This document shows, piece by piece, positions 1,171 to 55,583 of a DNA stretch of 64,000 bases; the stretch's first letter is position 1, and each line of letters begins with the position of its first letter. The position numbers were made by a program, and so were the translations under genes. The notes beneath the pieces were generated by a model that was not told where the DNA came from, made no database searches, and worked only from the letters and a program-made list of their open reading frames with translations. Origin of the DNA: Paenibacillus sp. Soil522 (GTDB taxonomy: Bacteria > Bacillota > Bacilli > Paenibacillales > Paenibacillaceae); NCBI RefSeq assembly GCF_001428245.1, contig NZ_LMRV01000046.1:1-64000 (forward strand), written 5' to 3'.

Positions 1171-1271
1171 TTTATTTCCCTCCGCAGCCTATAAGTTTCA
1201 CAACATAGATGAATATCTTTGTTGTACGAGCATAGATTGTACTACAAGCGTAAATGACTGCAGCCTTCCAT

Positions 1272-1343
1272 GGAGGCAAAAGCTCGTTTCGCGGTAAAAA
1301 GATAAGCGAAGTATAAAGGTCGGATTTATACTTTCTTATCTTT
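1272..1343 (+). repeat. Dispersed palindromic element, copy 1 (before pdaB)
   Basis: Imperfect inverted repeat: AAAGATAAG-cg-AAGTATAAA (1298-1317), 7-nt loop, TTTATACTT-t-CTTATCTTT (1325-1343). The 5' flank contains AAAGCTCGTTTCGCGGT (about 1279-1295), which recurs exactly beside copy 4 near 54,420. The hairpin ends 35 nt before the pdaB start codon. There is no U-run, so it does not look like a simple terminator. Confidence 0.75.
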
Positions 1344-1378
1344 GTACAAGCTTCCATTAGAGAGGAGTGCCCTTCCCG

Positions 1379-24964: not shown

Positions 24965-25401
<437 letters not shown>

Positions 25402-33384: not shown

Positions 33385-33538
33385 GTTGCCACCCCCTTCC
33401 CTATAATCATGTCTTTAATATGGTAGACATTTCACCTAAATTTAAGCCCACAGATCCAGGCGGTTCATTAAAGAACAAACAAAAGTTCTCGCCAGTCAAT
33501 CATCGCAAAATAATCAACTAACAAAAACGGATATTGCG

Positions 33539-42269: not shown

Positions 42270-42330
42270 GATTCATCACTCCCCGTATTCCATTGCGCTT
42301 TCGCACAACCGGTTGTCCTGTCTCGCGTTG

Positions 42331-42375
42331 AAAGATAAGAATGTATAAGCAAATAACTTATACATTCTTATCTTT
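42331..42375 (-). repeat. Dispersed palindromic element, copy 2 (before the methyltransferase gene)
   Basis: Perfect 19-bp arms AAAGATAAGAATGTATAAG (42331-42349) and its exact complement (42357-42375), 7-nt loop. The left flank TCTCGCGTTG aligns with TTTCGCGGT beside copies 1 and 4. Best-preserved copy of the family. Confidence 0.8.
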
Positions 42376-42389
42376 TAACATAGAACGAA

Positions 42390-43439: not shown

Positions 43440-43640
43440 TCCCGTAATAGTATACATTCCGTTAATTACGACGGGCTTTCCACGCCTCGATGCATGAGAA
43501 AGGCCTTCGCAGACACTGCGAAGGCCATGATGTCGTTATCGCGCATCAACCCTAAAGGATCGAATATTGCTTACAAACGTTTTATCATAACACCTCGGTA
43601 GGAAATTAAGCCTTCAGGCACCTACTGTCTACGGTATGCG
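43440..43640 (-). promoter_or_regulatory. L10 leader RNA
   Basis: Minus strand contains GACAGTAGGTGCC...GGCTTAATTTCCTACCGAGGTG, the kink-turn pairing pattern of the L10 leader known from B. subtilis, followed by a GC-rich hairpin with a short U-run (43495-43526). L10(L12) binding is expected to lower rplJL expression. Confidence 0.8.
43495..43526 (-). terminator. Attenuator hairpin in the L10 leader
   Basis: Minus strand GGCCTTCGCAG-TGT-CTGCGAAGGCC then TTTCT. It lies between rplA and rplJ, so it can reduce readthrough into rplJL. Confidence 0.75.
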
Positions 43641-43664
43641 TATTCGAATTTAATTCCGTTCTTC

Positions 43665-46900: not shown

Positions 46901-46999
46901 GAACTATCCCTCCGGCCTGCAAGGCGTACACCGCTAGATTCATATTCACGTTATCTAACTGTTCCCATCTCAGTGGGTTCAGCAATGTTTCACGTCGAG

Positions 47000-47040
47000 A
47001 GATAAGAATGTATATCTGATAAATTCCACACGTTCTTATC
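47000..47040 (-). repeat. Dispersed palindromic element, copy 3 (sigH 5' UTR)
   Basis: Diverged copy: GATAAGAATGT (47001-47011) pairs with ACGTTCTTATC (47030-47040) with one G-U wobble; the left flank TTTCACGTCGAGA aligns with the flank of copies 1, 2 and 4. It lies just inside the predicted sigH transcript. Confidence 0.65.
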
Positions 47041-47055
47041 GCTAATAATAGAGTC

Positions 47056-54338: not shown

Positions 54339-54364
54339 GCCTTCACCCGCCTCACACTGTGTTA

Positions 54365-54437
54365 AAATATAAGACTTTATAAGCTATGCACTTATAAATA
54401 GACTTATATTTCACCGCGAAACGAGCTTTGCCGCCTT
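54365..54437 (-). repeat. Dispersed palindromic element, copy 4 (before ispD)
   Basis: Arms AAATATAAGACTTTATAAG (54365-54383) and CTTATAAATAGACTTATATTT (54391-54411) pair with a small bulge. The flank (54412-54437), read on the minus strand, contains AAAGCTCGTTTCGCGGT, identical to copy 1. Relative to its gene the order flank, hairpin, start codon is the same as for pdaB. Confidence 0.75.
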
Positions 54438-54485
54438 AGACGGCGTCAGCCGTTTACGCATGAACAATAGTACTATCATACCTTG

Positions 54486-55583
54486 TTACAGCGCTTTTTC
54501 CAACAGCTTCGGCTTTGCAAATATCATTCGGCCCGCAGACGTTTGCAGTACGCTCGTCACGAGCACCTCCATCGTTGTACCGATATACTCGCGTCCTCCC
54601 TCGACGACGATCATCGTGCCGTCATCCAAATAGGCGACACCTTGACCATGCTCTTTGCCGTCCTTTATCACTTGAACGATAATTTCTTCTCCCGGCAGGA
54701 CGACAGGCTTCACTGCATTAGCCAAATCATTAATATTCAGCACCGATACCCCTTGCAGCTCACATACTTTGTTTAAGTTAAAATCATTCGTAACGACCTT
54801 GCCATGAAGAGCCTTAGCCAGCTTTACAAGCTTGCTGTCCACTTCACCGATTTCTTCAAAGTCCCCTTCATAAATAAGAACCTTTACATCAAGCTCTTTC
54901 TGAATCTTGTTCAAAATATCGAGTCCGCGCCGTCCCCTGTTTCGTTTCAGCAAGTCGGAAGAGTCCGCAATATGCTGAAGCTCCTCAAGTACGAACTCCG
55001 GAATGACAAGCGTCCCTTCAATAAAGCCGGTCTTGCAAATATCCGCAATTCGTCCATCGATAATAACGCTCGTATCGAGTATTTTATGCTCCTCGTAGCC
55101 GCCCGCTTCATCTGCAGCCGATACGGCTCTGCGCTTCTCCAGCAGGGCGGCAAAGCCCTCTGCCAGCTCCTCCTGCTTATGCAGTCCAATTCGCATGCCC
55201 AAATAACCAAAGCATAGCATCATCGCCGCGGGAATAAGACTCCCTAAGCCCTCTAAGCCCGATACTGCGGGAAAGAGCAATACGGCGAGCAATAATCCTG
55301 CAAGCAGTCCGCCCGCCCCGGTAACCAGCTGCCGCACGGGAAGCGCTGCGGTTTCCTCCGCACCCTTCTGCATATATCGAATGATTTGCCCTGCAAGCAT
55401 CGTTGCCACAACCACACCAAAAACCGCGCCAATTGCTACATTCATGTAATAAGTGCCGGATCGCTGTAGCATTCCGAAGGATGAGCCAGACCATACGGCC
55501 GCTCCATTTATCCACCCGTATACTTCACCGCCTGCCATACCACCGAACAACATACCCATTATTTGAATGATTCGTCTAACCAT
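54486..55583 (-). CDS. PIN/TRAM-domain membrane protein YacL
   Basis: A 365-residue protein: four membrane segments (about 5-24, 44-66, 85-108, 114-132), a PIN domain beginning LDTSVIIDGR (about 169-178), and a C-terminal TRAM domain (about 293-353) that binds RNA. YacL-type proteins are conserved in Firmicutes between disA/radA and ispD; a membrane-tethered RNase is inferred, but the substrate is unknown. GGAGGTGAACCATA precedes the ATG. Confidence 0.85.
   Translation of the reverse strand: MVRRIIQIMGMLFGGMAGGEVYGWINGAAVWSGSSFGMLQRSGTYYMNVAIGAVFGVVVATMLAGQIIRYMQKGAEETAALPVRQLVTGAGGLLAGLLLAVLLFPAVSGLEGLGSLIPAAMMLCFGYLGMRIGLHKQEELAEGFAALLEKRRAVSAADEAGGYEEHKILDTSVIIDGRIADICKTGFIEGTLVIPEFVLEELQHIADSSDLLKRNRGRRGLDILNKIQKELDVKVLIYEGDFEEIGEVDSKLVKLAKALHGKVVTNDFNLNKVCELQGVSVLNINDLANAVKPVVLPGEEIIVQVIKDGKEHGQGVAYLDDGTMIVVEGGREYIGTTMEVLVTSVLQTSAGRMIFAKPKLLEKAL

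Follow-up and report, generated by a model that had tools for sequence, protein, structure and literature searches.

What are the four palindromes that lie in noncoding DNA within a 64-kb window of Paenibacillus sp. Soil522 (i.e., the whole stretch of 64,000 nucleotides analyzed here), and how did they come to be there? An earlier note on this DNA had placed them at 1298 to 1343, 42331 to 42375, 47000 to 47040, and 54365 to 54411 (referred to here as sites 1 to 4) and had considered a mobile palindromic repeat, an operator, or an RNA control element. We found all four palindromes at these positions, and the adjoining genes were, as named there, pdaB, a methyltransferase gene (MTS domain family), sigH, and ispD. 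The arms at site 2 (42331 to 42375) were indeed perfect over 19 bp, with a 7-nt loop between them, and the inner arms at site 3 (47000 to 47040) were mismatched. When sites 1 and 4 were aligned with six more copies, the palindrome proved to be no more than the left half of a unit of about 102 nt. A TCGCG-containing flank, which had been described as an accompaniment of the palindrome, was present, and in the aligned copies it formed the base of another hairpin, which is GC-rich. The window contained the following copies and associated features, scored with a covariance model (R1; 8 copies, 31 pairs) where bits are given.

1245 to 1347, minus strand: full element copy upstream of pdaB, consisting of the AT-rich palindrome (1298 to 1343) and a GC-rich hairpin (1248 to 1292); R1, 90.1 bits, a score that is not independent, as site 1 is among the 8 sequences from which R1 was built.
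33416 to 33419, no strand: empty site, at which relative L145 has an element and the window has none; flanks 94% and 91% identical.
42306 to 42379, minus strand: element copy between rplL and the methyltransferase gene; R1, 47.2 bits.
46947 to 47047, minus strand: degenerate copy upstream of sigH; R1, 20.7 bits (E of 0.02 for the window).
54361 to 54462, plus strand: full element copy upstream of ispD, consisting of an AT hairpin (54365 to 54411) and a GC hairpin (54416 to 54459); R1, 97.6 bits, again not independent, site 4 being another of the 8 sequences.
54475 to 54503, minus strand: TTGGAA-17-TATGAT, a promoter-like match immediately upstream of the element at ispD (consensus scan).

The copy at site 2 retained an intact AT hairpin and a decayed GC half, and BLAST aligned the sigH copy to site 2 at 77% identity across 54 nt. 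In another species (L170), the same gap between rplL and the methyltransferase gene was occupied by an element in the opposite orientation, which may reflect repeated insertion at this spot or else an inversion. A search of the whole window against Rfam at gathering score detected only an L10 leader (43487 to 43652, minus strand) and an S10-Clostridia leader (25291 to 25391, minus strand), i.e., ordinary ribosomal protein leaders, both of which lay away from the elements. Rfam matches on site 2, microRNA-type matches among them, were far below gathering scores and were discarded.

The complete unit is about 102 to 104 nt long, carries no gene, and consists of an AT-rich hairpin followed by a GC-rich one, and mostly ends in CTTG (consensus: AAATATAAG, AT-rich hairpin, CTTATATTTCACCGCGAAACG, GC-rich hairpin, CGTTTACGCTTG). 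In 67 copies from the host genome, 92.3% of the cells paired (slid controls, 33 to 42%) in an alignment that was fitted to the model and hence leans towards structure. Changes on both sides were present in 22 of the 31 pairs, and none of 500 shuffles of these 67 copies reached any of five measures. Both hairpins covaried. IS200/IS605 elements, too, have subterminal hairpins at both ends. These results support, across copies, the earlier suggestion of selection on the hairpin. Regarding the strand that folds, G.T combinations were barely more frequent than A.C at the pairs (57 versus 42 when one mostly G.T loop-closing pair was excluded; 87 versus 47 when it was included), and the copies therefore do not show which strand this is. 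Other species contained a variant of about 146 nt with an extra arm inside the GC hairpin, which the short form lacks; most predicted folds of this variant would form a three-way junction. The long form was observed at L161, L178, L182, L189, L191, L205, L207, L230, and L242, all from other Paenibacillus genomes, and a search for the extra-arm motif detected no long copy in the host-genome stretches examined.

A BLAST search with site 2 revealed further copies in the host genome (6.40 Mb; 120 contigs). With R1, we obtained 122 matches at an E value of ≤1 among the best 150 of 1,077 candidates, mirror-strand matches counted; with mirror matches included and only 150 candidates scored, this value can be read neither as a clean count nor as an upper limit. 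Mirror matches also account for many of the 126 AT-half matches that a half-by-half search counted without a GC half, given that the AT half is palindromic, and this second count was set aside. At an E value of <1e-6, the host genome contained at least 67 copies, drawn from 61 sources (i.e., the window and 60 stretches chosen because they held matches). The expectation of many genomic copies, with compensatory changes among them, was thus borne out. We then have a survey of 60 genomes, based on the best 67 candidates per genome and strict filters, in which a count could not exceed 67 and a genome without a match may still carry the element: the element was matched in 33 genomes, 31 of them among the 37 genomes of the genus. 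Copies per Paenibacillus genome ranged, among these best 67 candidates, from no match to at least 67 (e.g., G013 and G026, at least 67 each; G022, 53; G007, 31). The six genus genomes that gave no match were G002, G004, G005, G024, G031, and G034. Phages yielded no element match, viral contigs a single matching stretch, and plasmids one record, a 2.7-Mb replicon of Paenibacillus cellulosilyticus (76.5%). No described Paenibacillus repeat of this kind was found in the open-licence library that was searched.

Single-linkage clustering at 95% identity grouped 21 of the 67 host copies in one cluster (mean identity, 96%), and the flanks of these 21 copies were unrelated (ungapped mean identity, 29% upstream and 25% downstream). 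Similarly, 22 of the 30 copies of Paenibacillus sp. LHD-38 formed one cluster (mean, 93.5%) with unrelated upstream flanks (27%). At 95% identity, no burst was present in P. prosopidis (0 of 14 copies), and only 2 of 13 copies clustered in P. vietnamensis; the claim of a burst is thus limited to two of the four genomes examined.

Orthologous loci with and without the element defined the insertion most exactly at pdaB. Among 30 loci, 12 were occupied in one orientation, 11 had a short site, and 7 had a spacer. Ten of the 11 short sites (which include L352, L353, and L369) had GTTC, and L358 had GTTT. In element orientation, the empty site reads GCTTGTTC followed by TA in the 10 and GCTTGTTT in L358, and the occupied site of the host genome reads GCTTGTAC, element, TAGTAC; GTTC is retained in L356. 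A comparison of the empty and occupied sequences indicates insertion directly 3' of GTTC without target duplication. The seven remaining loci had spacers of 41 nt or 68 to 71 nt (matched-pattern length) that were partly remnant-like. The spacers of 68 to 71 nt in the more distant genomes (L360 to L362, L364, L365, and L367) contained a GC hairpin resembling a remnant of the GC half. At ispD, 11 of 30 loci in the genus, including that of the host, had the element in the same place and orientation; it was in the opposite orientation in L322 and, by weaker scores, in L332 and L336, and at least L321 and L324 to L329 were short. Empty and occupied ispD sequences differed by few bases, and the boundary was less exact than at pdaB, as it was in three further empty-site cases (window position 33416 versus L145, L114 versus L188, and L071 versus L155).

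Head-to-tail tandems were joined at the CTTG-type end. On contig C99 of the host genome, about five diverged elements followed one another head to tail at L112 (3054 to 3560), with CTTG/AAAT-like junctions; this tandem is outside the 67-copy count. Shorter tandems or abutting copies were observed at L093, L117, L174, L176, L225, and L233.

The copy number, the near-identical copies with unrelated flanks, the empty sites, and the covarying hairpins together identify a non-autonomous mobile hairpin element. We conclude that the four palindromes belong to a family of short non-autonomous mobile elements, each with an AT-rich and a GC-rich hairpin, that was amplified in Paenibacillus. The number of copies, the empty sites, the tandems, and the bursts seen in two of the genomes thus support the first of the three initial readings, a mobile palindromic repeat. 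A conventional miniature inverted-repeat element (MITE) moved by a DDE transposase would likewise be short, high in copy number, noncoding, and intergenic, but the alignment contained no terminal inverted repeats (TIRs) between the two ends and the pdaB empty sites no target duplication, which leaves this as the least probable of the readings that we considered.

We examined the insertion sites of the 65 host copies with a recognizable start (two of the 67 were dropped). T was present at position -3 in 59 of 65 copies and at -2 in 50 of 65, with a T-rich stretch from -9 to -5. In copies from elsewhere, T was at -3 in 72 of the 76 that were parsed (from 92 copies, with 16 skipped and seven chance matches outside Paenibacillus removed beforehand). 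The 3' end was CTTG in 48 of 65 host copies and in 70 of 79 parsed ends elsewhere, and the left site, [T/G]TTN, was only loosely conserved (GTTC at pdaB; TTTA, GTTA, and others elsewhere). A terminator-like stem was found upstream of 20 of the 67 copies and downstream of none, compared with 2.2% of 1,114 random intergenic positions. When only T-tract sites were considered, such stems were present at 11 of 31 copies versus 73 of 716 positions (Fisher P = 2.5e-4).

Regarding gene context, 64 of the 67 copies overlapped no gene, as judged with a simple gene caller that called 84% of the examined bases coding. The upstream gene was on the same strand in 50 of the 65 copies for which both neighbors were called, a commoner relation than a position 5' of a gene. 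Fourteen of these 65 copies lay between convergent genes, with a convergent stop within 14 nt in 11 cases. The generalization that each copy is 5' of a gene thus holds for the four copies in the window and fails for the family.

Insertion behind terminator-like hairpins and T-runs is also what would be expected if a structured RNA of about 100 nt were retroposed behind terminators (i.e., a bacterial SINE) by a reverse transcriptase (RT) of the group II intron type. Group IIC introns insert behind terminator-like hairpins or T-runs. Retroposition could also account for the few copies without a 5' half (L180, L245, and L107), two of which sit at terminator-like stems as read by eye; these copies tell against precise single-strand transposition, which would not make them. 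Such truncations are few, however, and may be later palindrome deletions, there was no clear G.T bias, and the element had no Rfam match at an E value of ≤1 (short copy) or ≤2 (long copy). RTs were matched in 31 of the 60 genomes, but no match at an E value of ≤1e-5 was obtained in the high-copy genomes G013, G026, G022, G007, and G014. RTs were present in G004, G005, and G024, which had no element match among the best 67 candidates per genome. We regard retroposition as highly improbable.

The family may instead depend on a transposase acting in trans. A search for Y1 transposases (PF01797), RAYT included, gave no match in the host genome and did give matches in an Escherichia coli control. 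Y1 was matched in 8 of the 60 genomes and in 4 of the 37 genus genomes (33 without a match). All four Y1-positive genus genomes (G003, G010, G014, and G035) had at least 32 copies, and nine of the other 33 had at least 31, a hint in favor of Y1 from a comparison that is not corrected for kinship. In the Y1 loci scanned with R2, one element copy of G010 (37.9 bits) and a broken Y1 frame were separated by about 0.7 kb (L260, the same locus as L266); with at least 67 copies in this genome, such proximity is probably fortuitous. Element ends bounded none of the scanned Y1 frames. Because the host genome underwent a recent burst and has no Y1 match, a lost Y1 is less likely.

IS91 elements target GTTC or CTTG. 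Rolling-circle movement of the IS91/Helitron type, in which a Y2 enzyme would nick behind GTTC/CTTG-like sites and CTTG would serve as both terminator and tandem target, could explain the insertions 3' of GTTC, the CTTG-type ends, the lack of duplication at pdaB, the 3' hairpin followed by CTTG, and the head-to-tail tandems. A CTTG end has been seen in some Helraiser insertions (PMC4778049). Y2 matches were indeed present at three contigs of the host genome. They were present in only 10 of 60 relatives, however, and in none of six genomes with 31 to at least 67 copies each (G013, G026, G022, G020, G032, and G007), so that no Y2 enzyme consistently co-occurred with the element; nor were ends shared, and the only R2 match near the host Y2 loci was weak (21.6 bits; E of 0.057) and lay some 1.8 kb away from the transposase frame. 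Rolling-circle movement is thus unlikely, if less so than retroposition. At L123 and L124 (host contigs C89 and C33), Y2 (IS91-type) frames lay beside a tyrosine-recombinase-like open frame; these loci are a short contig and a contig end and possibly represent a multicopy element.

Eight TnpB matches were obtained in the host genome, the only one searched for this family; their loci contained no R2 match and shared no element end, such as a TnpB-linked (omega RNA) end. TnpB-like open frames were observed a few hundred bases from an element at L180 and L242. Four genomes with 31 to at least 67 copies (G013, G026, G022, and G007) had no Y1, Y2, or RT match. As candidate mobilizers, Y1/RAYT, Y2/IS91, and RT were rejected because none co-occurs consistently with the element, as was TnpB on the basis of the host genome; this does not prove that they played no part, as a family absent today may still have acted earlier.

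Membership in IS200/IS605, REP/RAYT, IS91, or the TIR-bounded MITEs is not supported, although each offers a partial likeness. IS200/IS605 transposition leaves no target duplication, and in this respect the pdaB empty sites agree with it. IS200/IS605 ends have subterminal hairpins and two tetranucleotides, of which one flanks the element on the left and the other closes it on the right (PMC6006769). The layout of the Paenibacillus element is similar, with hairpins near both ends, a loosely conserved tetranucleotide outside the left end, and a mostly fixed one that terminates the right end. It differs in its loose left site, in two hairpins that are unlike each other, and in having no linked Y1, most carrier genomes being without Y1. 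REP/BIME sequences are extragenic, high-copy hairpins thought to be mobilized in trans by RAYT (TnpA_REP) (PMC6006769, PMC8266576). The Paenibacillus element is similarly extragenic, high in copy number, and dispersed, with a presumed trans factor, but it combines two hairpins in a fixed unit, most of its carriers have no Y1 protein, and no hairpin in the alignments inspected by eye had a GTAG/GTGG or CGTC tag at its base. CGTC-tagged repeats, also dispersed palindromes, have no dedicated transposase (PMC3733652, the main text of which does not mention Paenibacillus); the Paenibacillus element shares their dispersal and lacks the tag. Finally, the BOX, RUP, and SPRITE repeats of Streptococcus pneumoniae are short, interspersed, structured, and inserted into one another, RUP being about 107 bp, BOX modular, and SPRITE enriched near convergent 3' ends (PMC3049150). 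Both TIRs and target duplications are found with BOX and RUP (PMC3049150), and neither with the Paenibacillus element.

The explanation that we consider probable is that of a mobile two-hairpin element moved as a folded single strand by an enzyme acting in trans, with some copies later kept as 5' untranslated regions (UTRs). The putative enzyme would recognize both hairpins in folded single-stranded DNA and make two cuts, one after the left tetranucleotide and one after the terminal CTTG. The strand would then be joined into T-tracts that have become single-stranded, as may happen behind terminators. We infer from the layout that single-strand cutting of the IS200/IS605 type, as described in PMC6006769 and PMC8266576, fits best and IS91-type rolling circle less well. 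A more specific proposal, which we make tentatively and hold to be less likely than the general scheme, is that Paenibacillus has an unrecognized mobilizer without a Y1, Y2, or RT signature that inserts folded single strands into terminator T-tracts, where pausing of the polymerase would leave the coding strand exposed, and that some of the insertions became conserved 5'-UTR modules.

The copies at ispD and pdaB bear on this last step. None of the 11 ispD sequences had a change in the 11 pairs of helix 3 (i.e., the outer GC stem), and the apex windows of the AT hairpin were 50 to 56% identical across orthologs. One pair of the AT stem was AU in 8 sequences and GC in 3, and the next was CG, UA, AU, or GC in 8 of the 11 and unpaired in 3. 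Of 500 shuffles, none reached the covariation score and 1 reached the ten cells with double changes, although the number of pairs with a double change was not unusual (236 of 500); shuffle controls on 11 to 12 related genomes overstate significance. At pdaB, where the AT hairpin was the better conserved half, the observed values were reached by a few shuffles (covariation score, 3 of 500; double-change cells, 4 of 500; double-change pairs, 30 of 500), and conservation in situ was overall the weaker of the two. Both promoter hexamers and the stretch up to the ispD element were invariant in the 11 orthologs, and an ispD mRNA that starts from this promoter match would have the element at its 5' end. 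The insertions are shared by 11 genomes at ispD and 12 at pdaB and have been retained for long; their invariant parts and compensated pairs suggest a secondary role, perhaps as a 5'-UTR hairpin. In Gram-positive mRNA decay, 5' hairpins can stabilize transcripts, and our best guess for the retained role is an mRNA stabilizer of this kind.

The compensation in situ at ispD and, more weakly, at pdaB, and the invariant GC stem at ispD are also what a family of cis-regulatory RNAs or operators spread through its usefulness (i.e., a regulon) would be expected to show. Set against this, the orientation to genes is mixed, convergent settings are included, other genomes have orthologous sites without the element, the ispD copy is reversed in L322, and copy number varies widely within one genus. 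We therefore consider a regulon very unlikely. Operator or RNA control, the other proposals made at the outset, is not the basis of the family, given the mixed orientation and gene context; these proposals survive in part in that the ispD and pdaB copies look retained, perhaps as structured 5' UTRs.

The palindromes of this window thus introduce an abundant repeat of one genus that has exact insertion sites and no known enzyme. Finding that enzyme would show either that single-strand transposition has a new branch or that a known enzyme acts at long range. The preference for terminator T-tracts is open to direct test, and the ispD and pdaB orthologs allow us to follow how a mobile hairpin turns into a conserved leader, in one case of a gene of the isoprenoid pathway and in the other of a sporulation gene.
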